NCBI GenBank assembly: GCA_903873715.1
Contig: CAIQPS010000128.1
Location: 1-36,474 of the forward strand
Direction of reading: 5' to 3'
Length of the DNA: 36,474 nt
Source of the DNA: an uncultured Actinomycetes bacterium
GTDB taxonomy: Bacteria > Actinomycetota > Thermoleophilia > RBG-16-64-13
Shown here: positions 1,503 through 14,069 of the stretch, one piece after another
Layout: each line of letters starts with the position of its first letter
Position numbering within the stretch: position 1 is the first letter of the stretch
Made by a program: the position numbers and the translations under genes
The notes under the pieces: model-generated
Database searches by the model: none
What the model was told of the DNA's origin: nothing
Seen by the model: the letters and a program-made list of their open reading frames with translations, nothing else

Positions 1503-1529
1503 CCGGCCGTGGGGGCTCCCCACGGCCGG
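1503..1529 (-). terminator. Perfect 12-bp hairpin downstream of the repeat-protein gene
   Basis: CCGGCCGTGGGG at 1503-1514 pairs perfectly with CCCCACGGCCGG at 1518-1529 around a 3-nt loop. On the minus strand the hairpin is followed within a few bases by TTTT. It lies 60 bp past the stop of the minus-strand gene at 1589 and before the dinB promoter, so it probably ends that transcript and insulates dinB. Confidence 0.65.
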
Positions 1530-1588: not shown

Positions 1589-2167
1589 TCAGTCTGCCAA
1601 CATCCAGCCCGCGCGCACCCAGGAGGAGTCGGTGGTCCGCTCCGCGCCCGCACCCTTGACCGGAGCGCTGCTGAAGACCACGGCCCTATCGTGCACCACC
1701 GCACCTATGAGGCGCCTGTCGGTGAGAAGCACGAAGCGCAGGGCGGGATGGGCCGAGCCCGGGGCCATGAAGGCGTCGTTGTCGGGCGTCGGTTCGGGGC
1801 GGGCATAGGCGAACACGTCCGTGTCCTCCGGGCGGCCTCCACGGGCGTATCCCATCACGTCCGGCACGCGCCGCGCGCGCTCGAGGTCGTAGGCGAAGAC
1901 ATCCGTTTGAGGGGCCGCTTCGCGCCGCACGTAGTGGAATACGTCGGTCTGCTCCGCGGTGCTTCCAGGAGTATAGGAGAAGGCATCAACCTCGGCCCGG
2001 TCGAGCGGCGGCCGGCCGGCGTACGCAAGAAGGGTCTCCCCCGGCTCCAGATAGGAACTGAGTGTCTCCAGGGCCTGCTGACGGCGCCCGTTCGCCCGCT
2101 CCGCCCGGTCTGACAACAACGCTTCCAGACTACGCCGGAACTCCGGATCGCAGGCAAAAGTGCTCAC
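1589..2167 (-). CDS. Unrecognised protein with six exact 14-residue D-V-F-A-Y repeats inside a PH-like frame
   Basis: This is a 192-residue soluble protein I cannot assign to a named family. Residues 37-49 (SYLEPGETLLAYA) and 144-158 (RFVLLTDRRLIGAVV) resemble the first and a later strand of bacterial PH-like (YokE/bPH-type) domains. Between them, residues 60-134 contain six copies of a unit beginning [TPVN]-D-[VA]-[FM]-x-[YA]. Its aspartates fall at 61, 75, 89, 103, 117 and 131, an exact 14-residue period. There is no signal peptide or membrane segment. The GTG start at 2167 follows a good Shine-Dalgarno (GGGAGG, 4-5 nt away). The gene has its own strong promoter (2356-2383) and a hairpin terminator, so it looks monocistronic. 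The PH-like reading is a weak resemblance; the repeat is plainly visible. Function unknown. Confidence 0.75.
   Translation of the reverse strand: MSTFACDPEFRRSLEALLSDRAERANGRRQQALETLSSYLEPGETLLAYAGRPPLDRAEVDAFSYTPGSTAEQTDVFHYVRREAAPQTDVFAYDLERARRVPDVMGYARGGRPEDTDVFAYARPEPTPDNDAFMAPGSAHPALRFVLLTDRRLIGAVVHDRAVVFSSAPVKGAGAERTTDSSWVRAGWMLAD
1739..1990 (-). repeat. Six tandem 42-bp coding repeats (14 residues each)
   Basis: This is the part of the preceding gene that encodes the D-V-F-A-Y units. The spacing is constant at 42 bp, with no insertion or deletion across the six copies, while the DNA and the non-core residues have diverged. This suggests an old array kept in register by selection on protein structure, not a recent slippage product. 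Confidence 0.8.
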
Positions 2168-2336
2168 AGATCCTCCCTTGAGACTGGAGACGCGTCACCG
2201 GTCTTGACGTGGGTGAAGGGCGAGGGATTCCCCGCCGGGCGAAGGCATCGGCCCTGGAAGTTCCGACGATCGGCAGTCGACATTCCGCTGTTCCCCTTTT
2301 CAGTAGCGCCCGAAGAGCCAAAGGGAAGACGTCCGA

Positions 2337-2355: not shown

Positions 2356-2383
2356 ATTATAACCGTACTAATGATTCGTGCAA
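2356..2383 (-). promoter_or_regulatory. Sigma-70-type promoter for the repeat-protein gene, with a ~180-nt leader
   Basis: On the minus strand there is TTGCAC (2378-2383), a 16-bp spacer and a perfect TATAAT (2356-2361). Transcription would start near 2349 and leave a leader of about 180 nt before the GTG at 2167. That leader contains a possible long-range stem (GGGCG with CGCCC) closing a CCGA-loop-TCGG hairpin. I do not recognise a known riboswitch in it. Apart from this leader and the cooC terminator, the interval 2168-2445 holds nothing else I can support. Confidence 0.75.
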
Positions 2384-2445: not shown

Positions 2446-3231
2446 TCAGTCCCCCTCGGAGATCAGCCCCGAGACCTTGGCGATCGCCTTGACGCGTTCG
2501 GCAAGATCGGAGCTTGCGTCGTAGACGGCGGCGCTCAACTGGTCCGCCTCGACCACCCGGTCGTCACGCGGGAGCCAGCCGGCGAGCGGCACGTCGCCGA
2601 TGTGCTTGCGGATGAAGTCGAGGTCCTCCTCGGCCCGCACCTTGTTGGCCACGACCCACACGGAGGGGATGTTGAGCTCCTTGGCCATGCGCGCGATGTC
2701 CTCGGCCACGCCGATGCTGCGCTGGCCGGGCTCCACCACTATGTACATGGCGTCCACCGCCGCGGCGGTGCCGCGGCCGAGATGCTCGAGGCCGGCGACC
2801 ATGTCGAGGAGGACGGTCTCCTTCTCCCTCAGGAGCAGGTGGGTGACCAGGGCTTTGACCATCGTGTTCTCAGGGCACACGCAGCCGGTGCCGGCGCCCC
2901 GCACCACGCCCATCTCGAGGAGCCGGATGCCCCGGTATTCGACGGCGAAGCGCGCGGGTATGTCGTCCACGCGCGGGTTCAGACGGAAGTACGACCCGGA
3001 ATCTCCCGGGACCGCACCCGTGCGTTCCTGCACGAGGTCCTTCATCTCGATGATGGGGACCACCTGGTCCTGGAGTTCCTGGGGGAACCCCAGCGCCTGG
3101 CCCAAGGTAGGGCTGGAATCGGCGTCGATGGCGTACACGGTCTGTCCAGCAGCGGCCAGCACATAGGCCAGCACCGCGCTGAACGTGGTCTTGCCCACCC
3201 CGCCTTTGCCGGCCACGGCGATCTTAGGCAT
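2446..3231 (-). CDS. cooC: CooC-type nickel-insertion ATPase for CO dehydrogenase
   Basis: The 261-residue protein is a SIMIBI-class (MinD/NifH-like) ATPase that acts in building the Ni-Fe-S C-cluster of CO dehydrogenase. It has the deviant Walker A GKGGVGKTT (residues 8-16), the IDAD switch region (35-38) and the DMVAGLEHLGRGT motif (143-155). The CxC pair C117-V-C119 is the site through which CooC dimers bind a metal ion in characterised members. Its ATG overlaps the end of the upstream 86-residue zinc-ribbon gene by 8 bp, so the two are probably translationally coupled. It is divergent from the Rrf2-cooS cluster. A second homologue, AcsF, lies at 13287, so this copy may serve CooS and the other AcsB; that split is an inference. 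Confidence 0.93.
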   Translation of the reverse strand: MPKIAVAGKGGVGKTTFSAVLAYVLAAAGQTVYAIDADSSPTLGQALGFPQELQDQVVPIIEMKDLVQERTGAVPGDSGSYFRLNPRVDDIPARFAVEYRGIRLLEMGVVRGAGTGCVCPENTMVKALVTHLLLREKETVLLDMVAGLEHLGRGTAAAVDAMYIVVEPGQRSIGVAEDIARMAKELNIPSVWVVANKVRAEEDLDFIRKHIGDVPLAGWLPRDDRVVEADQLSAAVYDASSDLAERVKAIAKVSGLISEGD

Positions 3232-3484
3232 GCTCTTCCCCCCCGTCCTTTGCCGCTTTGTCGGCTTGATACGCCAGCCAGCGCTCTTCGCCGATGCATT
3301 CGCGGGCCATCGCGCACCACTCCACGCAGGACGGCACCACGTCTCTATCTATATGGTTGCCACACACATGGCAGCGGACGCGGCACTCGTCTGAGAACAT
3401 CTCGACCTCGGCCCCGCACGAGGGGCACGTCACTGTCGATACGCTCAGCGAACGTCCGTCCTGGCCTGGACACCGCCCCGACAT
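3224..3484 (-). CDS. Zinc-ribbon protein with Cys-rich C-terminal tail, coupled to cooC
   Basis: The 86-residue protein has a rubredoxin-like zinc ribbon, CPSCGAE (C20, C23) and CHVCG (C38, C41). A second Cys motif follows, PSCVEWCAMARECIG at about residues 51-65. A similar motif occurs in small proteins of acetogens and other anaerobes whose function I do not know. Residues 1-48 align without gaps to the neighbouring 57-residue protein (26 of 48 identical), so the pair arose by tandem duplication. The ATG at 3484 is chosen because it puts the N-termini in register with that paralogue; the frame overlaps cooC by 8 bp. The context suggests a role in CODH maturation, metal delivery or redox sensing, which is unproven. 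Confidence 0.8.
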   Translation of the reverse strand: MSGRCPGQDGRSLSVSTVTCPSCGAEVEMFSDECRVRCHVCGNHIDRDVVPSCVEWCAMARECIGEERWLAYQADKAAKDGGEEHA

Positions 3485-3519: not shown

Positions 3520-3693
3520 TCAGTCGCCGGTCCCGTCGTACTTGGTGCCGTCTTTGTTGACCCACGTCCCGCAGACATGGCACTTGACCCGTTTTTCGTC
3601 GGAGAACAGCTCCAGATCGGCGCCGCAGTTGGGGCAGACGATCTCGGTGACACCGAGGTCCCGGCCTTCGTGGCCCGCGCAATGCTCGCTCAT
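3520..3693 (-). CDS. Short zinc-ribbon protein, first gene of the cooC operon
   Basis: A 57-residue ORF that starts ATG (3693) and ends TGA (3520), preceded by a purine-rich AAAAGGGGGG. It contains CPNCGAD (C20, C23) and CHVCG (C38, C41), a rubredoxin/zinc-ribbon fold signature, and lacks the C-terminal PSCxxWC motif of its downstream paralogue. The DNA also encodes longer frames here, but only this one shows the conserved Cys pattern and the colinear match with the 86-residue protein. It lies 35 bp upstream of that gene and is presumably co-transcribed with cooC from the 3694-3801 divergent region. Its function is not known. Confidence 0.82.
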   Translation of the reverse strand: MSEHCAGHEGRDLGVTEIVCPNCGADLELFSDEKRVKCHVCGTWVNKDGTKYDGTGD

Positions 3694-3775: not shown

Positions 3776-3801
3776 AAAAGAGCATTAGATTGGGGAATCA
3801 A

Positions 3802-4239
3802 GTGCTCTGCATCTCCAACAAAGGACGATCCGCGACTCGGATCCTGACATTGTTGGCGTCCGGGGGGGCGAAGAGAATCTACTCTAGCACAGACATCTGC
3901 ACGGCAGAGGGCATCAACCCCGGTTACGTCCAGCAGATCATGGGATCCCTGCGAGACTCTGGCCTCGTTGTGAGCCATCGTGGCAAGCAAGGCGGCTTCG
4001 AACTCGCACGCCCCGCAAGCATGATCACCCTCGCCGACGTCCTGCACGTCATGGAAGGCGAGACCCGTCTGGCCCCCTGCCACGACGGCACCGTATGCGA
4101 GCGGGTCCCAACCTGTGCCGCGCGCTCCGCCTGGGTGGAGGCCGCGTCTGTAATGGACAGTTTCTTCGAACAGATCACGATCGAGCAATTGGCAAACCGG
4201 GCCCAAGAGCTGGCAGCCCAAAGGGAAGGTGAGGGATGA
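3802..4239 (+). CDS. Rrf2/IscR-family transcriptional regulator, probable Fe-S sensor
   Basis: The 145-residue protein has an N-terminal winged helix with the Rrf2 landmarks INPGYVQQIM and HRGKQGGFELAR. Cysteines C93, C99 and C105 match the C-x5-C-x5-C spacing of IscR, with Arg at the position of the fourth IscR ligand (His). This points to a [2Fe-2S] or [4Fe-4S] cluster that responds to redox state, oxygen or Fe-S supply. The frame opens at a TTG at 3790. GTG at 3802 is preferred because it follows TTGGGGA at good spacing and gives the MLCISNKG N-terminus, matching MMCISTKG of the second Rrf2 protein here. It is first in the CODH/ACS cluster and its stop overlaps the next start (ATGA). It probably represses or activates that cluster and itself through the site at 3764. 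Confidence 0.9.
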   Translation: MLCISNKGRSATRILTLLASGGAKRIYSSTDICTAEGINPGYVQQIMGSLRDSGLVVSHRGKQGGFELARPASMITLADVLHVMEGETRLAPCHDGTVCERVPTCAARSAWVEAASVMDSFFEQITIEQLANRAQELAAQREGEG

Positions 4240-4568
4240 AGCAGATAGTGTTGGAAGTGCCGGGAATGTATGGGGATCACCACGTGATGGCGGTCCGTGA
4301 GTTGCTCCTGGGCACAGATGGTGTGACCGAGGTCACCGCGAGCGCCGCCCGGCGCAAGGTCGCGGTGGGCTTCGATGAGGCCAAGACCTCGGCCGACAAG
4401 GTCCAGGACGCGCTCGCCGCGGCGGGCTACATGGGCGCCGATCCTTCAATCATGGAAGGCCTGCCCGACCGGCACAAGGACGGCTCCGCATGGCACGTGC
4501 TCGGCGACCGGTCGACCATCACCGAGCGCAAAGACCGCGAGATGTCCGGCGACCACCGGCGCTATTAG
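4236..4568 (+). CDS. HMA-like (ferredoxin-fold metal-binding) protein lacking the CxxC site
   Basis: The first 70 residues of this 110-residue protein have the beta-alpha-beta pattern of heavy-metal-associated domains: IVLEVPGM, then AVRELLLGTDGVTEVTASAA, then KVAVGFDEAK, then a final helix and AAGY. The metal loop GMxCxxC is replaced by GMYGDHH (residues 10-16), so Gly13 and His16 stand where the cysteines would be. The last 40 residues are charged and have no recognisable domain. It overlaps the Rrf2 stop by 4 bp and lies 47 bp before cooS. It may bind nickel or another borderline metal through the His pair, or act as a structural partner; both are inferences. Confidence 0.8.
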   Translation: MKQIVLEVPGMYGDHHVMAVRELLLGTDGVTEVTASAARRKVAVGFDEAKTSADKVQDALAAAGYMGADPSIMEGLPDRHKDGSAWHVLGDRSTITERKDREMSGDHRRY

Positions 4569-4615
4569 AACGCCACCGCTGACTCTGATCCAGAGCCAAA
4601 AGGAGAGACTGAAGA

Positions 4616-6622
4616 ATGCCTTCTTACAACAGCTTGGATAGCGCGGCGTGCGAGATGCTGTCGGCGTGCGAGGGGGTCGTCGAGACTTCCTTCAGCCGGG
4701 CGGACGCGATGCTGCCCTGCTCGATCGGCGCGGACGCGCTGTGCTGCCGGCACTGCGCCATGGGGCCGTGCCGCCTGATAGGCCCTCACATGACCGGCGT
4801 GTGCGGCGCCACTCGCTCCACAGTCGTCGCCCGTAACTTCGCCCGCGCCGTCGCCGCCGGGGCTGCCGCTCACTCCGACCACGGGCGCGACATCGTGTTC
4901 GCCCTGCTCGCCGTCGCCAAGGGCGAGGCCAAGAGCTTCCGCATCCGCGACGAGGCCAAGCTCCGTGAGGTGGCCGGCCATCTCAACGTCAAGACAGAAG
5001 GGCGCACCACCGAGGAGATCGCTCTCGATGTCGCCGAGAAGGCCTTAGCGGAGTTCGGCAAGCAGACCGGCTCGCTCTCCTATTTCAGAAGGGCCACCAT
5101 CCCCCGCCAGGAGATTTGGCGCGAGCAGCGTGTGATGACCAGAGGCATCGACCGCGAGGTCGTGGAGCTCATGCACCGCACCCACATGGGGACCGACCAG
5201 GATCCGAAGAACCTGCTGGACGGCTGCATCCGCGCGGCCCTCGGCGACGGCTGGGGCGGCTCGATGCTGGGCACCGACCTCAGCGACGTGCTCTTCGGCA
5301 CTCCCAGCCCGCTCAAGAGCAAGGTGAACCTCGGGGTCCTCAAGGACGATGAGGTGAACGTCGTGGTCCACGGGCACGACCCGATCCTCTCCGAGATGAT
5401 CGTGGCTGCGTCCACCGATCCCGAGATCATCGAATACGCCAAGAGCAAGGGCGCCAACGGGATCAACCTCGCGGGTATCTGCTGCACCGCCAATGAGGTC
5501 CTCATGCGTCACGGCATCCCGCCGGCAGGCAACTTCCTCTCCCAGGAGCTGGCCATCGCCACCGGCGCCGTGGAAGCCATGGTGGTGGACGTCCAGTGCA
5601 TCATGCAGGCACTGGCCAAGCTGTCCCAGCAGTTCCACACGAAACTCATCACCACCTCGCCCAAGGCCAAGATCGAAGGCGCGGACCACTTCGAGTTCGA
5701 CGAGCATCACGCATACGAGGACGCCAAGAAGATCATCCGCACCGCCATCGACAACTACGGCAACCGTGGCAAGACCAAGATCCCGCAGGTCAACGAGGCG
5801 CTGGTGGCTGGCTTCTCGCACGAGTACATCCGCTACATGCAGGGTGGCCACTTCCGCGGCTCGTTCCGCCCGCTCAACGACGCCATCGCCGCCGGCCGTA
5901 TCCGCGGCCTCGCGGCAGTCGTCGGCTGCAACAACGTCCGCGTTACCCACGACGCGCCCATCTCCCAGACGATCAAGGCGCTCATCGAGAACGACGTCCT
6001 GGTGGCCGTCACCGGGTGCGCCGCCAGCGGCGCCGCCAAGTACGGCTACCTCAAGCCGGAGTTCATGGAGCAGGCCGGCGCCGGTCTGCGCGAAGTCTGC
6101 GAGGCGATCGGCATCCCGCCGGTCATCCACGTGGGCTCGTGCGTCGACAACTCCCGCCTGCTCACCATCCTCACCGAGTGCGCCACTGAAGGCGGCCTGG
6201 GCGAGGACATCTCCGACCTCCCGGCGGTGGGTATCTGCCCCGAGTACATGTCAGAGAAGGCCCTTTCCATCGGCACCTACTGCGCGGCCTCCGGCGCCTA
6301 CACCCTGTTCGGCCTCCCCTCCCCCGCGGCGGGCAGCCCGGCCGTCATGGACATGATGCTGAACGGTTGGATGGAACGCTTCGGCGGCGGGATCGACTTC
6401 GAGCCCGACATCGACAAGCTGATCGAGAAGGCCCTCGCTCACATCGACCTCAAGCGCAAGGAACTCGGGCTCACCGAATACGATCCCGAGCGCTACGGCC
6501 AGAGCGGCGACCGCCTGATGGAGGAGATCCTCGAGCAGGCCGGCGATTTCGCGCCTCTCAACCTGTACTCAGTCAAGGACGCTGCGGCCGCCGCGTCCGC
6601 CGGCAACAAACAGACCGTCTAA
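4616..6622 (+). CDS. cooS (acsA): Carbon monoxide dehydrogenase, catalytic subunit of CODH/ACS
   Basis: The 668-residue Ni-Fe CODH interconverts CO2 and CO and feeds CO to acetyl-CoA synthase. The N-terminal cysteines for the D and B clusters are present (C35, C43/C44, C47, C52, C63). All C-cluster ligands are present: H254 in VHGHDP, C290 in GICCTANE, C328 in VDVQC, C438 in VVGCNN, C468 in VTGCAASG and C509 in VGSCVDN. The SEKALSIGTY segment, which carries the catalytic Lys, is also present, so the enzyme should be active. The ATG at 4616 follows AAAAGGAGAG. A small inverted repeat (CTCTG 4583-4587, CAGAG 4591-4595) lies just before the ribosome site. Adjacent acsB supports assignment as the ACS-associated CODH and not a monofunctional one. 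No in-frame break. Confidence 0.97.
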   Translation: MPSYNSLDSAACEMLSACEGVVETSFSRADAMLPCSIGADALCCRHCAMGPCRLIGPHMTGVCGATRSTVVARNFARAVAAGAAAHSDHGRDIVFALLAVAKGEAKSFRIRDEAKLREVAGHLNVKTEGRTTEEIALDVAEKALAEFGKQTGSLSYFRRATIPRQEIWREQRVMTRGIDREVVELMHRTHMGTDQDPKNLLDGCIRAALGDGWGGSMLGTDLSDVLFGTPSPLKSKVNLGVLKDDEVNVVVHGHDPILSEMIVAASTDPEIIEYAKSKGANGINLAGICCTANEVLMRHGIPPAGNFLSQELAIATGAVEAMVVDVQCIMQALAKLSQQFHTKLITTSPKAKIEGADHFEFDEHHAYEDAKKIIRTAIDNYGNRGKTKIPQVNEALVAGFSHEYIRYMQGGHFRGSFRPLNDAIAAGRIRGLAAVVGCNNVRVTHDAPISQTIKALIENDVLVAVTGCAASGAAKYGYLKPEFMEQAGAGLREVCEAIGIPPVIHVGSCVDNSRLLTILTECATEGGLGEDISDLPAVGICPEYMSEKALSIGTYCAASGAYTLFGLPSPAAGSPAVMDMMLNGWMERFGGGIDFEPDIDKLIEKALAHIDLKRKELGLTEYDPERYGQSGDRLMEEILEQAGDFAPLNLYSVKDAAAAASAGNKQTV

Positions 6623-6638
6623 TCGGAGGTTCAGTCAG

Positions 6639-8897
6639 ATGTCGAAATACATCGCGAAGGCGGCCATCCGAGGCGCGACTGCGATCGTCAACGAGGCCGA
6701 CCAGTTGCTCGAAGCGGCCATCGCCGACCTGGGTGCGGACAAAGAGGTGGCGTTCACCAACACCGCCTACTATCTCCCGACCATCCTGGGCTTCACCGGC
6801 AAGGAAGTCAGCAACCTCGGCCAGTTGCGCGACGTGGTGGCGCACTGCAAGACGCTGCTGAACGAGCCTCCGGGCGACGAGCTCTGGCTGCCCTACCTGG
6901 GTGAGACCCTGGACAGCGGCGCCGCCACCCTGCTCGCCGCCGAGACCATCGAAGCCGTGCGGTTCGTCCGCGGCCAGCAACCGGAGAAGATCGACGGCCT
7001 GCAGTTGGTGGGCACCAGCGCGCCCGGTGGCCCGGGCTACGCCAACGGTCCCATCGACGACATCCAGCTCCGCGCCTGGGGCATCCAGCTCGTGGACGGC
7101 CGCATGCCCGGCTTCGCCGCCATCGTCGGCTGCGCCCGCAGCAACGAAGCGGCCGTGACCCTCATCCGCGAGCTCCAGAAGCGTAATATCTTGGTGTTCC
7201 TGTCCGGCAACGTGAACGGTCGCAGCATCATCGACCAGTTGCAGGAAGAGGGCGTCGAGATGGGCTACGACACCTACATCGTGCCCTTCGGCCGCGACAC
7301 CATCTCGGCCATCTACGCCTTGGGCTTCGCCACCCGCTCCGCGCTGACCTTCGGTGGTATGTCCGGCGGCCAGATCCGCGACATCCTGCTCTACAACAAG
7401 TTCCGCGTGTTCGCCTTCGTCCTCGCCCTCGGCGAAGTGGACGACCTCAAGTACGCGGCCGCGGCCGGCGCCATCAACTACGGCTTCCCGGTCATCGCGG
7501 ACACGGTCATCCCGCAGATCCTCCCGACCGGCGTCACGGCCTACGAGCACGTCGTCAGCATGCCGTTCGACGACATCGAGGGCGACACCGACACCGACAA
7601 GGCCCGCCGCATGGTGCAGCGCGCCATCGAGGTCCGCGGCGTCAAGATCAAGATCACCGACGTTCCGATCCCCGTCCCCTACGGTTCCGCCTTCGAGGGC
7701 GAGCGCATCCGCCGCGCCGACATGCGCGTCGAGTTCGGGGGCAGCAAGTCCACAGCCTTCGAATATCTGCGTATGGTCGATAGCGACTCGATCGAAGACG
7801 GCAGGATAACCGTGGTCGGGCCGGACTTCTCGGAGATCAAAGACGGCGGCGCGATGAACATGGGCATGGTCATCGAGGTGGCCGGCCGCAAGATGCAGGA
7901 AGACTTCGAGCCCGTCCTCGAGCGCCAGATGCACTACTTCGTCAACGGCGCCTCCGGCATCCAGCACGTGGGTCAGCGCGACATCACCTGGATCCGCTTC
8001 AGCAAGGCTGCCGTAGACAAAGGCTTCGGTCTCAAGAACCTGGGCGACATCGCCCACGCCCGTTTGCACGCGGAGTTCGGGGCGATCGTCGACAAGGTGC
8101 AGGTGACCATCTACACCGACCCGGAGAAGTTCGAGGAGTGGCTAGCGAAAGCCCGCGAAGCGTATCTCAACCGCAACGTCCGGCTGGCCGGCCTCATCGA
8201 CAGCAACGTCGAGGAGTTCTACAGCTGCACGTTGTGCCAGAGCTTCGCCCCCACCCACGTGTGCGTCATCTCGCCTGAACGTCTGGGCCTGTGCGGCGCC
8301 TACAACTGGCTGGACTGCAAGGCTTCCTACCAGATCAACCCCACCGGGCCCAACCAGCCCATCTACAAGGGCACCTGCATCGACGCGGACAAGGGTGTCT
8401 GGGAGGGCAGCAACGCGTTCGTGTATGCGAACTCCCAGCAGGCCGTGGACAACGTGTCGCTGTACTCCATCATGGACAGCCCGATGACGGCGTGCGGTTG
8501 CTTCGAGTGCCTGGTGATGCTCATCCCCGAGGCCAACGGCGTCATGGTCGTCTCCCGCGAGGACCCGAGCATGACCCCGGCCGGCATGACCTTCTCCACC
8601 CTGGCCGGCGTGGCCGGTGGCGGTCTGCAGTCGCCGGGCATCATGGGCGTCGGCAAGTACTACCTCACCAGCAAGAAGTTCATCGCTGCCGAGGGCGGCT
8701 TCAAGAGGGTCGTCTGGATGTCCAGCAACCTCAAAGCCATCATGGCGGACGAACTCAAGCAGGTGGCCGAGCGCGAGGGCGATCCCGACCTCATCGACAA
8801 GATCGCCGACGAGCGCTCCGCCACGACCGTCGAAGAACTGCTGCCCTTCCTCGAAGAGAAGGGGCATCCGGCTCTCGTCATGGAATCCATCATCTAG
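6639..8897 (+). CDS. acsB: Acetyl-CoA synthase subunit of CODH/ACS
   Basis: The 752-residue protein joins CO, a methyl group from the corrinoid protein and CoA into acetyl-CoA. It is of the long bacterial type, with an N-terminal CODH-binding domain of about 310 residues, a middle domain, and a C-terminal A-cluster domain. The A-cluster ligands are C530, C533, C542 and C552 for the [4Fe-4S] and bridging sites. C619-G620-C621 (ACGCFEC) binds the distal nickel. Numbering is shifted by 24 relative to the Moorella enzyme, with identical spacing. It starts 16 bp after cooS behind CGGAGG. Nickel loading is likely to need AcsF, encoded downstream. Confidence 0.97.
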   Translation: MSKYIAKAAIRGATAIVNEADQLLEAAIADLGADKEVAFTNTAYYLPTILGFTGKEVSNLGQLRDVVAHCKTLLNEPPGDELWLPYLGETLDSGAATLLAAETIEAVRFVRGQQPEKIDGLQLVGTSAPGGPGYANGPIDDIQLRAWGIQLVDGRMPGFAAIVGCARSNEAAVTLIRELQKRNILVFLSGNVNGRSIIDQLQEEGVEMGYDTYIVPFGRDTISAIYALGFATRSALTFGGMSGGQIRDILLYNKFRVFAFVLALGEVDDLKYAAAAGAINYGFPVIADTVIPQILPTGVTAYEHVVSMPFDDIEGDTDTDKARRMVQRAIEVRGVKIKITDVPIPVPYGSAFEGERIRRADMRVEFGGSKSTAFEYLRMVDSDSIEDGRITVVGPDFSEIKDGGAMNMGMVIEVAGRKMQEDFEPVLERQMHYFVNGASGIQHVGQRDITWIRFSKAAVDKGFGLKNLGDIAHARLHAEFGAIVDKVQVTIYTDPEKFEEWLAKAREAYLNRNVRLAGLIDSNVEEFYSCTLCQSFAPTHVCVISPERLGLCGAYNWLDCKASYQINPTGPNQPIYKGTCIDADKGVWEGSNAFVYANSQQAVDNVSLYSIMDSPMTACGCFECLVMLIPEANGVMVVSREDPSMTPAGMTFSTLAGVAGGGLQSPGIMGVGKYYLTSKKFIAAEGGFKRVVWMSSNLKAIMADELKQVAEREGDPDLIDKIADERSATTVEELLPFLEEKGHPALVMESII

Positions 8898-8924
8898 ATC
8901 CGGCAGGCATCGAAAGGAGACCCT

Positions 8925-9875
8925 ATGGCAGTCCCTGAGGTAAAAGAGAAGTACGCCGGTCGGATACAAGAGGTGACCCTGGGCGCCGGCAGCCGCGGCA
9001 AGACGGTCGCCATCGGCGGCGAGTCGACCCTGCCCTTCCTCCACTTCGAAGGCACCGTGGCCAACCGCCCGGCGATCGCCATCGAGGTGAGCGACCGCGA
9101 GCCCGACGACTGGTCCCCGCTCCTCAAAGAGGCGTGGGGCGACGTGATGGGCGACCCGGCAAAGTGGGCGGCCAAAGCCGAGGAACTCGGCGCGGACGTC
9201 ATCGCGCTCTCGCTCGACAGCGCCCATCCGGAGCGCGGCAACACGGGCGCCGACGACGCCCGCAAGACCGTGCGCAAAGTGCTGGAGGCCACCACCCTCC
9301 CGCTCATCGTCTACGGCCCCGGCCAGAAGGACAAGGACAACGAGGTCCTCGTCGCAGCGGCCGAGGAAGCCAAGGGCGAGCGCATCGCCATCGGTAACGC
9401 CGAGGAGAAGAACTACCGCACGATCGTGGCGGCAGCGCTGGCGAACGACCAGGTCGTCATCGCCAAGAGCCCCATGGACGTGAACCTCGCCAAACAGCTC
9501 AACGTGCTCATCGGCGACATGGGCATCCCCAAAGACCGCATCATCATGGACCCGACCACCGGCGCCCTCGGCTACGGGGTCGAGTACAGCTACTCGGTCA
9601 TGGAGCGCGTCCGCCTCGCCGCCCTGGGTGGCGACGCCACCCTTCAGCAGCCCATGGTGCTGACGGTGGGCTACGAGGCCTGGCGCACCAAAGAAGCCCG
9701 GACCAACGACGAAGTCCCCCAGGAATGGGGCGACTGGGCCCAGCGCGCGATCCTCTGGGAAGCCAACACCGCCATCACCCTGGTCAACACCGGGGCGAAC
9801 CTGCTGGTGCTGCGGCATCCCCAGTCGGTGGCGCTGGTCCGCAAGGCCATCGACCGGCTCATGGCCGGAGCCTAG
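8925..9875 (+). CDS. acsD: Corrinoid/iron-sulfur protein, small subunit
   Basis: The 316-residue TIM-barrel protein forms the CFeSP heterodimer with AcsC and holds the corrinoid cofactor at the subunit interface. Family landmarks include PFLHFEG near the N-terminus, LSLDSAHPE, PLIVYGPG and IIMDPTTGALGYGVEYSYSVMER. The length is typical. It starts 27 bp after acsB, with AAAGGAG before the ATG, and is followed by acsC after a 44-bp gap. No unusual features were noted. Confidence 0.95.
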   Translation: MAVPEVKEKYAGRIQEVTLGAGSRGKTVAIGGESTLPFLHFEGTVANRPAIAIEVSDREPDDWSPLLKEAWGDVMGDPAKWAAKAEELGADVIALSLDSAHPERGNTGADDARKTVRKVLEATTLPLIVYGPGQKDKDNEVLVAAAEEAKGERIAIGNAEEKNYRTIVAAALANDQVVIAKSPMDVNLAKQLNVLIGDMGIPKDRIIMDPTTGALGYGVEYSYSVMERVRLAALGGDATLQQPMVLTVGYEAWRTKEARTNDEVPQEWGDWAQRAILWEANTAITLVNTGANLLVLRHPQSVALVRKAIDRLMAGA

Positions 9876-9919
9876 GCGCTATCAGTACACATCCGAGTAC
9901 AGACGAAAGGAGCGCCTAG

Positions 9920-11263
9920 ATGGCCCTCAGTGGGATTCAGATCTACAAGGTACTGCCGCAGACGAACTGCAAAGAGTGCGGCGTGGCCACCTGCTTGGCC
10001 TTCGCCATGAAGCTGGCCGCCCGCCAGGCAGAGCTGTCGGCGTGCCCGTACGTGTCCGACGAGGCGAAAGCCATGCTGGACACCGCGGCCGCCCCGCCCA
10101 TCCGCCTCATCACGCTGGGCGCCGGCGACCGCAAGCTGGAAGTCGGCAACGAGACCGTGGTCTACCGGCATGAGAAGACCTTCGTGCACCAGCCCGGCCT
10201 CTTCCTGCGGCTGCCCGCCTCTCTCTCCGACGCCGACTTCGCAGCCGGTGTCGACAAGGTGGCCGGCTACACCGTCGAGCGCGTCGGCCAGATGCTGCGC
10301 ACCGACGGCGTCGCAATCGAAGGCGCGTCCGCCGATGCCTTCGCCGCTCGCGTCAAACAGGCCGTCGACAAGGGCCTGGCCGTCATCCTGCTCGCGTCCG
10401 ACCCGGCCGTCATCGAAGCCGGTCTCGCCGCCGCAGGCAACACCAAGCCGCTCATCTACGCCGGCGCCGGCGCCGACTCGGCAGCCCTGGCCCCGCTGGC
10501 CAAGAAGTACTCCGCCAGCCTCACGGTCGGCGCCGCGGGCGACCTCGAAGCCCTGGCCGCCGCCACCGAGAAGGCCGTGGCCGCAGGTGCCGAGGATCTG
10601 GTGCTCGACCCGGGCATGACCGGTTGGGCCGACGCCCTGGCGCTCCCCGCCCAGCTGCGCCGTGCCGCCATCAAGAAGAACTTCAAGCAGCTCGGTTACC
10701 CGATCATCGCCTTCCCGGGGTCGCTCAGCGACAGCGCCGAGGAAGAAGCGATGCTGGCGAGCCTGCTTATCGGTAAATACGCGGGCCTCATCGTCCTCGA
10801 CCGGTTCGACCAGGCCGTGGTCTACTCGCTGCTGGCTCTCCGCCAGAACATCTACACCGACCCGCAGAAACCCATCCAGGTCAGCCCCGGCCTGTACGAG
10901 ATCGGCGAGCCCGAACCGGGCTCCCCGCTGCTCGTCACCACCAACTTCTCCCTCACCTACTTCTCGGTGGCGGGCGAGGTCGAAGGCAGCGGCCGCAAGG
11001 CCTGGCTCCTCGTGGCCGACTCCGAGGGCCTCTCGGTGCTCACCGCCTGGGCGGCCGGCAAGTTCGACGCCGAAGCGATCGCCAAAGCGGTCAAGACCAC
11101 CGGCGTCGCCGAAAAGATCAACCACAAGAGCATCGTCCTTCCGGGAGCCGTCGCCGGTCTGTCCGGTGAGCTCGAGGAAGAACTGCCGGGCTGGAAGGTG
11201 CTTGTCGGCCCGCGCGAATCCATCGGTATCCCCTCCTATCTGAAGCTCCTGGCCTCTCAGTAG
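9920..11263 (+). CDS. acsC: Corrinoid/iron-sulfur protein, large subunit
   Basis: The 447-residue subunit carries methyl-cobamide between the methyltransferase AcsE and AcsB. The N-terminal [4Fe-4S] domain has C17, C20, C25 and C42 (TNCKECGVATC...ACP), the low-potential cluster used in reductive activation. A TIM barrel follows, then a C-terminal B12-binding domain. A good ribosome site, AAAGGAG, precedes the ATG. It is separated from acsV by only 5 bp. Confidence 0.95.
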   Translation: MALSGIQIYKVLPQTNCKECGVATCLAFAMKLAARQAELSACPYVSDEAKAMLDTAAAPPIRLITLGAGDRKLEVGNETVVYRHEKTFVHQPGLFLRLPASLSDADFAAGVDKVAGYTVERVGQMLRTDGVAIEGASADAFAARVKQAVDKGLAVILLASDPAVIEAGLAAAGNTKPLIYAGAGADSAALAPLAKKYSASLTVGAAGDLEALAAATEKAVAAGAEDLVLDPGMTGWADALALPAQLRRAAIKKNFKQLGYPIIAFPGSLSDSAEEEAMLASLLIGKYAGLIVLDRFDQAVVYSLLALRQNIYTDPQKPIQVSPGLYEIGEPEPGSPLLVTTNFSLTYFSVAGEVEGSGRKAWLLVADSEGLSVLTAWAAGKFDAEAIAKAVKTTGVAEKINHKSIVLPGAVAGLSGELEEELPGWKVLVGPRESIGIPSYLKLLASQ

Positions 11264-11268
11264 GATCC

Positions 11269-13290
11269 ATGCCACTGAGCGACGACACAGCTCTCCTTGA
11301 CGGCACCACGGCCGGGGCGCAAGCTCCGGACGTGGCCGTCCGCCTGGAGCCCGCCGGCGTGACGGTCACCGTCCCGGCAGGCTCGCTCCTGGAGGACGCC
11401 ATCTCCAAGGCCGGCCTTCGCGTCGCACTGCCCTGCGGGGGGCAGGGCCGCTGCGGCCGTTGCGTCGTACAGGTGAAGGAGGGCTCTGTCCGTCGCCGGT
11501 CCACCGTCCGCCTCGGGGCCGAGCAGATCGAAGAGGGTTACGCTCTGGCCTGTCAGACCCTGGTCAACAGTGATGCGGTGGTCCTCCTGATCGACGCGGA
11601 GCCGCGGCAGGAACGGATCGTCGGCGGGGACCTGGCGGACAAGGTGGCCAGAGAGAGCGTTCCGTGCGATCGCCGGCGTGCGCCCGTCGTGTCGGCCTAC
11701 CGGGTGGTCGTACCTCCCCCGGACATGGCCGACAACACCCCGGATTTCGAGCGCCTGCAGCGGGAGATGGCTCTCCAGTACGGCATCAGGCGCATCACTC
11801 CCTCTCTGACCGCCTTGGCTCGCCTGCCGGAGTCCCTGCGGAACGGGGAGTGGACGGTCACGGCAGTGATCGAGCAGCGCGACCCGGACGTGGCCTTGGC
11901 CTTGGACCCCACGGACTCGGCGGGCTCCTATCGTCTGCTGGACGTCTTTCCCGGCGACCAGCCACCTCGGCTCTATGGGGCGGCTATCGACATCGGGACG
12001 ACCACCGTAGTGGCATATCTGACCGACCTAGCCACCGGTGAGGTCGTGGACGGCCTCTCCGCCTACAACGACCAGATCGCGCGGGGCGAGGACGTCATCT
12101 CCCGCATCATCTACGGGAAACAGCTGGCGCGGCGGGTCGAGTTGCGCGAGCGCGTGGTCGGCACCATGAACGGCTTGCTCGACGAGATGCTGTCCCGCAA
12201 GCGGCTCACACGCGACGACATCCTCGCCGTGGTCGTGGCGGGGAACACCACCATGACACATCTGTTCCTGGGTCTCGACCCGGCGAACATCCGGCTGGAG
12301 CCCTACGTGGGCGCCGCGGGCAAGTTCCCGCTCGTACCCGCCTCGACCCTCAGCCTGCACGTACACCCGGAGGCGCTCGTCGACTGCATGCCGGCCGTCG
12401 GAGCGTACGTCGGCGGCGACATCACCGCGGGCGCACTCATATCCGGCATGACCGAGGGGGAAGAGATAGCCCTGTTCCTGGACATCGGTACCAATGGCGA
12501 GATGGTCCTCGGCAACAACGAATGGCTCATCAGTTGCGCCTGCTCGGCCGGCCCAGGCTTTGAAGGAGCCGGTGCGAGTTCGGGCATGAGGGCCGTCCGG
12601 GGTGCCATCGAGGAGGTCTGGATCGACCCGGTCACCTTCGAACCCACCGTCACCACCATCGGTGGCGACGTGCCCCGCGGCATCTGCGGCTCGGGGATGA
12701 TCTCGCTCATGGGCGAACTCATGATGACGGGGATCATCAACAAGAGTGGCCGCATATCCCCCGATATCCCCACCAAGCGCATCCGTGAAGGCCACAACGG
12801 CTTGGAGTACGTGGTGGTGTGGGCCGACGATACCGCGACCGGCGAGCGGGACATCATCCTGGACGACACCGACATCATCAACCTGCTTCGGGCCAAGGCC
12901 GCCATCTACGCCGGCGCCGCCGTGCTCTGCGAGAGCGTGGGCCTGTCCATCACGGACGTCGACCGGGTGCTCATCGGGGGGTCGTTCGGCAAACACATCG
13001 ACGTCGAGAAGGCCATCCAGATCGGCCTCTTGCCGGATCTGCCCTGGGACCGCTTCTCGTACCTGGGGAACACTTCCCTCCAGGGCGCGTACCACGCGCT
13101 CGTCTGCCGGACATGCCGGGCGGAGATCGAGGACATCGCCTCGAAGATGACCTACCTGGAGCTGAGCGCGGACAACCGGTTCATGGACGCGTTCACATCC
13201 GCCCTGTTCCTGCCCCACACCGACGAGAGCCTCTTCCCGTCGGTCCAACAAAGCCTCGAGGCCCGTAAACAAGGAGTGTCCGCCGTATGA
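11269..13290 (+). CDS. acsV: Corrinoid activation protein (RACo/AcsV type), 2Fe-2S ASKHA ATPase
   Basis: The 673-residue protein reactivates the CFeSP when its cobalt is oxidised from Co(I) to Co(II), using ATP and an electron from its own cluster. It begins with a plant-type [2Fe-2S] ferredoxin domain (C56, C62, C65, C95). Next come a linker and middle domain, then the ASKHA ATPase core with AAIDIGTTTVVAY, VVAGNTTMTH, LFLDIGTNGEMVLG, SAGPGFEGAGASSGM and VLIGGSFGKHID. The first ~20 residues before the ferredoxin domain look dispensable, but TAGGA just before 11269 supports this start. Its stop overlaps acsF by 4 bp (ATGA). Confidence 0.94.
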   Translation: MPLSDDTALLDGTTAGAQAPDVAVRLEPAGVTVTVPAGSLLEDAISKAGLRVALPCGGQGRCGRCVVQVKEGSVRRRSTVRLGAEQIEEGYALACQTLVNSDAVVLLIDAEPRQERIVGGDLADKVARESVPCDRRRAPVVSAYRVVVPPPDMADNTPDFERLQREMALQYGIRRITPSLTALARLPESLRNGEWTVTAVIEQRDPDVALALDPTDSAGSYRLLDVFPGDQPPRLYGAAIDIGTTTVVAYLTDLATGEVVDGLSAYNDQIARGEDVISRIIYGKQLARRVELRERVVGTMNGLLDEMLSRKRLTRDDILAVVVAGNTTMTHLFLGLDPANIRLEPYVGAAGKFPLVPASTLSLHVHPEALVDCMPAVGAYVGGDITAGALISGMTEGEEIALFLDIGTNGEMVLGNNEWLISCACSAGPGFEGAGASSGMRAVRGAIEEVWIDPVTFEPTVTTIGGDVPRGICGSGMISLMGELMMTGIINKSGRISPDIPTKRIREGHNGLEYVVVWADDTATGERDIILDDTDIINLLRAKAAIYAGAAVLCESVGLSITDVDRVLIGGSFGKHIDVEKAIQIGLLPDLPWDRFSYLGNTSLQGAYHALVCRTCRAEIEDIASKMTYLELSADNRFMDAFTSALFLPHTDESLFPSVQQSLEARKQGVSAV

Positions 13291-14069
13291 CCTTGACCAT
13301 AGCCATAGTCGGGAAGGGCGGCACCGGCAAGACCACGTTCGCTTCTCTCACCGTCAAGTATCTGACCGAGATCGGGATGACCCCGGTCCTGGCCATAGAC
13401 GCCGACCCCAGCGCGAACCTCAACATGGCCCTCGGCATGGAGCTCGGCGACACCGTCGGCCAGATCCGCGAAGACACCCGCGACCAGGTGACCGGCGGGA
13501 CCTTCGCCCCAGGCGTCTCCAAGCCTGACTGGTTCCAGTACCAGGTGGAGAACTGCGTGGTCGAGGGCGACGACGTGGACCTCATCTCCATGGGCCGGCC
13601 CGAAGGGCCCGGCTGCTACTGCGCCGCCAACCACATGCTGCGCGAGGCCATCGACCGGCTCGGCAACTCCTACAAGGCCGTCGTGATCGACAACGAAGCC
13701 GGCATGGAGCACATCAGCCGGCAGACCACCCGCGACGTCGACTGGCTGTTCATAGTCACCGACCCGTCCCAGCGCGGACTGGTGGCGGCGGAGCAGATCG
13801 TCTACCTCATCGATTCCCTCGGCGCGCGCATCGCGCACGCGGGCCTCGTCGTCAACCGGGTGACCGGCGACCTGTCCCCCGCGTGGAGCGAGCGGGCCGC
13901 GGCGCTGGGAGTGCCGCTGCTGGGCGCCGTGCCGCAAGACCCGGGCGTCTCCGTGCGGGACGCCGACGGCCTGCCCCTCGTCGACCTCGATGGCTCTTCT
14001 GCCATCTACCCTGCCGTGAAGGCCATCCTCGAGAAGTGCCTTATGGAAACGACCGCCCAGCGTCCGTAG
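13287..14069 (+). CDS. acsF: AcsF/CooC-family nickel-insertion ATPase, probably for acetyl-CoA synthase
   Basis: The 260-residue MinD-like ATPase has the Walker A GKGGTGKTT (residues 9-17), the IDADPSANL switch, the metal-binding pair C110-Y-C112 in GPGCYCAANHMLR, and the DNEAGMEH motif. It is encoded inside the ACS part of the cluster, translationally coupled to acsV. Characterised AcsF proteins promote nickel loading of the ACS A-cluster. It is clearly distinct from the CooC at 2446 (GVGKTT, C-V-C). Assignment to AcsB and not CooS rests on position and family, not on a unique motif. Confidence 0.9.
   Translation: MTLTIAIVGKGGTGKTTFASLTVKYLTEIGMTPVLAIDADPSANLNMALGMELGDTVGQIREDTRDQVTGGTFAPGVSKPDWFQYQVENCVVEGDDVDLISMGRPEGPGCYCAANHMLREAIDRLGNSYKAVVIDNEAGMEHISRQTTRDVDWLFIVTDPSQRGLVAAEQIVYLIDSLGARIAHAGLVVNRVTGDLSPAWSERAAALGVPLLGAVPQDPGVSVRDADGLPLVDLDGSSAIYPAVKAILEKCLMETTAQRP

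Follow-up and report, generated by a model that had tools for sequence, protein, structure and literature searches.

The window analyzed here, 36,474 nucleotides of contig CAIQPS010000128.1 from an uncultured Thermoleophilia bacterium, encodes a 192-residue protein built around six tandem units of 14 residues, which together with a single homologue forms a genuine and new repeat family, an orphan family of two whose function we infer from sequence. If this is correct, the known tandem-repeat proteins would gain a small architecture whose pitch is nearly fixed at 14 residues, from an actinobacterial lineage that has received little study, and with it a natural template for displaying peptides at even intervals; for a very small orphan repeat family, the weight of this finding is modest for now. 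The preliminary description of the gene had the ORF and its length right but gave no strand. We find that it is encoded on the minus strand, as the plus-strand frame at 1589-2167 is not open and contains an internal stop. The ORF and the segments of its product are as follows.

1589..2167, minus strand: repeat-protein ORF, 192 aa, with a GTG start at 2167 and a stop at 1589-1591; the homologue backs this frame
2012..2050, minus strand: segment LEPGETLLAYAGR, residues 40-52, with a predicted strand at 46-52; its counterpart in the homologue is QPGERPLAYADR
1946..1987, minus strand: repeat unit 1, residues 61-74, DAFSYTPGSTAEQT, core DAFSY
1904..1945, minus strand: repeat unit 2, residues 75-88, DVFHYVRREAAPQT, core DVFHY
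1862..1903, minus strand: repeat unit 3, residues 89-102, DVFAYDLERARRVP, core DVFAY
1820..1861, minus strand: repeat unit 4, residues 103-116, DVMGYARGGRPEDT, core DVMGY
1778..1819, minus strand: repeat unit 5, residues 117-130, DVFAYARPEPTPDN, core DVFAY
1736..1777, minus strand: repeat unit 6, divergent, residues 131-144, DAFMAPGSAHPALR, core DAFMA, lacking the Tyr
1661..1741, minus strand: segment RFVLLTDRRLIGAVVHDRAVVFSS, residues 143-169, with predicted strands at 143-149, 152-158, and 163-169; bacterial-PH-like by motif only

The Asp residues at positions 61, 75, 89, 103, 117, and 131 follow one another in exact 14-residue steps, which bears out the perfect period noticed at the outset. 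This regularity is rarely matched by chance, since 5 of 20,000 composition-preserving shuffles produced a ladder of six equally spaced Asp residues (any period from 5 to 30), while the lag-14 self-match of 29 was equaled at any lag from 5 to 40 in 22 of 20,000. The D-V-F-A-Y consensus originally given for the units proved too narrow: two of the six are exactly DVFAY, five fit the broader D-[VA]-[FM]-x-Y, and the last, unit 6, is without the Tyr. Each unit has a single hydrophobic stretch, five residues long, and then nine polar residues rich in Pro and charges. At the DNA level, the units agree with one another at only 14-27 of 42 bases, and Tandem Repeats Finder detected no 42-bp array in the gene. 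Such divergence means that the array does not stem from a recent 42-bp duplication, and that the repetition is old and has been maintained at the protein level.

The single homologue is an uncharacterized 242-aa ORF (G006:C106:1224-1949, in JADGPI010000037.1) from Thermoleophilia bacterium Chersky_299, a metagenome-assembled genome (MAG) that belongs to the same family as the window genome but to a different, sister genus. It matches the window protein with an E value of 4e-15 and a local identity of 32%. Loss of the reading frame in relatives, initially raised as a possible objection, is not seen, as the frame is intact in Chersky_299, and this one relative likewise has six repeats. Its units, which are in the same register, start at residues 63, 77, 91, 105, 118, and 132, that is, with spacings of 14, 14, 14, 13, and 14, so that array length has changed by one residue, once, while the C terminus has undergone large length changes and the homologue is ~50 residues longer. 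Glu replaces Asp in its unit 1, and unit 6 lacks the Tyr in both proteins, which nevertheless share the N-D-A and subsequent H-P of this divergent unit. Alignment of the two proteins in register gives 16 identities among 30 comparisons at the motif positions (-1, D, V/A, F, and Y) and 7 among 48 in the spacers, while over the 12 units D is found in 11, Y in 10, and V/A after D in all 12, figures that rest on two sequences and represent a two-point estimate. On its own, the lag-14 signal of the homologue is not significant (6,422 of 20,000 shuffles), and the value of this protein is as an aligned homologue. Since the core is kept and the spacers are not, the array is older than the split of the two genera, across which, on this two-point estimate, it appears to have been held at the protein level. 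Outside the array, the flanks P-G-E...LAYA (within an LxPGExxLAYA-like segment) and LLTDxRL are conserved, in contrast to the N and C termini.

Neither the repeat protein nor its repeat region matches any family in Pfam, NCBIfam, or PHROG, no PADLOC model of anti-phage defense matches the protein, and the best match in the PDB has a chance-level E value of 2.3. The earlier statement that no repeat of this kind has been described thus holds within these collections, and a confident match to a known repeat family is found in none of Pfam, NCBIfam, PHROG, and the PDB. Even at E<=10, Pfam returned nothing for either protein, with or without the repeats excised and with the bPH models included. Head repeats of YadA are 14-residue β-roll units and have the same period as the window array, which, in contrast, shows no Pfam repeat match, no glycine-rich pattern, and no autotransporter context.

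As for the segments on either side of the array, likened at first to strands of a bacterial PH-like domain, we retain this reading as a weak lead. The order of strands, P-G-E-x-x-L first and L-x-T-D-R-R-L second, is one that the flanks have in common with the bacterial PH-like domains bPH_3 (PF14470) and PF08000. Domains of PF08000 are ring-forming and thought to mediate protein-protein contacts (PMC2817789). However, bPH_3 matches are absent from genomes G000 and G006 (Chersky_299), and an hhalign comparison against four bPH_3 sequences from this class yielded an E value of 0.09 over 9 columns, corresponding to LLTDRRLI alone, which 9 of 200 column shuffles equaled. Foldseek found no significant match (none at E<0.001), the top probability in its viral library, among the matches listed, being 0.47 for a phage "Bacterial PH domain protein," with an E value of 1.3. 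To our knowledge, no such repeat insertion is known in bacterial PH-like families. A more far-reaching reading, that of a new type of repeat whose six D-[V/A]-[F/Y/M]-x-Y units, at a 14-residue pitch, are inserted into a loop within a divergent PH-like domain and act as a multivalent, regularly spaced scaffold peculiar to one Thermoleophilia order, seems to us unlikely as a whole.

Structure prediction with AlphaFold2, using a two-sequence alignment, gave a mean pLDDT of 39.5, with ~25-40 in the array and values near 60 for strands 46-52, 143-149, 152-158, and 163-169; confidence was low throughout when the homologue was used as the query, and that second model was set aside. The low values in the array may be a mere effect of the two-sequence alignment. 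Charge-hydropathy analysis places the array of both proteins on the disordered side of the boundary and their flanks on the folded side. The initial suggestion of a new solenoid does not sit well with units that have a single five-residue hydrophobic stretch and nine polar residues, nor with the pLDDT of the array. More generally, the array could be an ordered repeat fold, in which short D-V-F-x-Y β-strands alternating with nine-residue loops would build up a meander or a small solenoid, ~84 residues long and flanked by the strands of the platform. We consider this conceivable, if rather doubtful. The near-constant pitch in both proteins, with its single one-residue change, speaks for such a fold, as does the resemblance of the preceding strand, GETLLAYAGR, to a unit (LLAYAGR vs. 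DVFAYAR), which suggests that a strand of the platform could have been the source from which the units were copied. However, there is no second hydrophobic stretch per 14 residues, no Gly is conserved, the spacers are free to vary, and the model is of low confidence with no structural match.

Our best explanation, which we favor tentatively and with less than even confidence, is that the protein is a small β-rich platform displaying six copies of D-[V/A]-[F/M/Y]-x-Y as a multivalent docking surface. The platform would have a small helix-plus-β architecture, comprising helices at the N terminus, a strand (LEPGETLLAYA), and a hairpin (LLTDRRL), and the six units would be inserted between its two segments. 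Each unit would consist of a short motif, [TNP]-D-[VA]-[F/M/Y/L]-x-Y, and a polar spacer that is nearly fixed in length and free in sequence, the motif presumably being a binding site for a putative partner and the spacer a linker. The Asp/aromatic motifs would bind several partner molecules, or several sites on one oligomeric partner, and the 14-residue pitch would set the spacing of the bound partners; the protein itself is probably cytoplasmic. Several lines of evidence point to docking: the homologue matches the window protein in the number and order of its units, six in each, and nearly so in their spacing; the motif is conserved over the spacer, with its D, Y, and V/A kept in most or all units; array length has changed by one residue as against large changes in the C terminus; the array is on the disordered side and is modeled with a lower pLDDT than the flanking strands; and the limited DNA identity among units marks the repetition as old. 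On the other hand, near-constant spacing is unusual in flexible linkers, and a regular fold accounts for it about as well; moreover, the neighboring genes suggest no partner, and the two loci have none in common. The ligand-binding role first envisaged for the repeat is possible.

Two other uses of a repeated short motif were weighed against docking. The Thr preceding Asp could be a Ser/Thr-kinase site with an aromatic residue at +3, so that up to three phosphosites would be offered to a phosphopeptide-binding partner. Behind this reading is the idea of a kinase motif of this kind, of which we found no usable description in the literature. While T-D-[VA]-[FY] is present in three units per protein and is preceded by acidic or polar residues, Thr occurs in only 6 of the 12 units and is conserved less than Asp and Tyr, which makes phosphorylation quite improbable. 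It is hardly credible that the protein is the precursor of a multi-core modified peptide, with units as core peptides separated by spacers: although a short motif repeated between variable spacers could be read in this way, behind the array there is a conserved segment, whereas core peptides are usually found at the end of a precursor, and no modification enzyme or exporter adjoins either copy of the gene.

The expression signals of the repeat gene, all on the minus strand, are the following.

2172..2177, minus strand: Shine-Dalgarno sequence GGGAGG, preceding the GTG
2356..2361, minus strand: -10 element TATAAT, perfect in sequence
2378-2383, minus strand: -35-like TTGCAC, 3/6 matches in sequence, with a 16-nt spacer to the -10
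1503..1529, minus strand: G+C-rich hairpin with a perfect 12-bp stem downstream of the gene, -28.9 kcal/mol, z -4.6

The promoter, previously called strong, is better graded as fair, with a perfect TATAAT but a TTGCAC matching at three of six positions, and the pair scores below the threshold of a promoter scan. The leader, described earlier as long, measures ~180 nt and contains no known riboswitch, since an Rfam search of the window returned no matches. Downstream, the hairpin that had been described as a terminator has its perfect stem but a poor U-tract and is not called by a terminator scan; it is probably a terminator with a weak U-tract.

In the window, the gene, which is present in one copy in its genome, lies between dinB (encoding DNA polymerase IV) and the gene for a CooC-type ATPase, which is next to a CODH/ACS cluster. 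In Chersky_299, it lies between typA/bipA and an amidohydrolase-like gene, the latter assigned by reading of the sequence. The two loci are not syntenic and have no common neighbor, and dinB was not detected in G006, which is 93% complete, so that no partner is indicated. In the stretches examined from the 15 other family genomes with dinB, this gene adjoins neither cooC nor the repeat gene, and synteny provides no usable guide to function.

The adjacency to dinB in the window raises the idea of an array of sliding-clamp-binding peptides acting together with Pol IV. Compared with the β-clamp-binding pentapeptide, units 2 and 3 contain the closely similar QTDVF, and the adjacent Pol IV itself contains QDDLF. 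However, the Gln at pentapeptide position 1 is found in only 2 of the 12 units, being missing from four of the six in the window protein and from all those of the homologue, while the Tyr, which is outside the pentapeptide, is kept. Furthermore, G006 carries the repeat gene without a detectable dinB, and dinB in the window has a perfect LexA-type box, whereas there is none at the promoter of the repeat gene, and the hairpin lies between the two genes. With dinB undetected in G006, the Gln not conserved, and the promoter devoid of a LexA box, we set aside a Pol IV/clamp link as the main reading and regard it as highly improbable.

The repeat gene is very rare, being found in 2 of the 18 genomes of the order and accepted nowhere else among the genomes sampled. 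No other match was accepted in the remaining genomes of the order, in 399 genomes of the class, or in 397 genomes of the phylum, and a DNA pattern spanning two D-[VA]-[FY]-x-Y units revealed no further copy in class and phylum samples of 399 and 397 genomes, the reversed pattern used as a control giving none among the matches listed. Since the class and phylum samples overlap and were drawn from larger groups, this result is one of rarity rather than absence. Two contig scans seeded with short peptides, which depend on their seeds, recovered Chersky_299 as the sole match, and a phage search found none. Matches not accepted were those in G045 (E 4e-4, within an argC-like gene), G008 (E 0.009, out of frame across a TRAP-transporter gene), G011 (E 0.097 across 40 residues), and a Methylobacterium plasmid (E 0.7). 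A viral pattern match was rejected as well, as the matched part of this IMG/VR contig (L011:10460-10558) is an (ADAYAY)n tract of low complexity within a viral ORF and has no relation to the 14-residue repeat. The best reading of these searches is that the protein is order-restricted, genuine but very rare.

Such a distribution, together with the very unequal lengths of the C termini, might also be expected of an orphan without specific function, decaying or drifting neutrally with a relic repeat. This is improbable: the frame is open in both genomes, the ribosome-binding site is good, third-position G+C is 0.80, as expected for coding DNA in a GC-rich genome, and the motif positions are kept across two genera.

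Among the neighbors, dinB is present in 16 of the 18 family genomes, G006 being among those in which it was not detected. The perfect LexA/DinR-type box in the window, CGAACATTTGTTCG, is at 1440-1453, right upstream of dinB, and an exact CGAAC-N4-GTTCG box is found at dinB in ten other family genomes, which suggests that SOS control of Pol IV is conserved in this lineage. On the other side of the repeat gene, beside cooC, two adjacent small proteins encoded on the minus strand (3224-3484, CPSCGAEVEMFSDECRVRCHVCG; 3520-3693, CPNCGADLELFSDEKRVKCHVCG) share one CxxC...CxxC zinc-ribbon pattern and are apparently tandem paralogues. The CODH/ACS gene cluster of this Thermoleophilia genome, which spans 3790-14069, comprises two CdhD-family genes and the genes for an Rrf2 regulator, an HMA-domain protein, the CO dehydrogenase catalytic subunit, an acetyl-CoA synthase subunit, AcsV, and the CooC-type ATPase.
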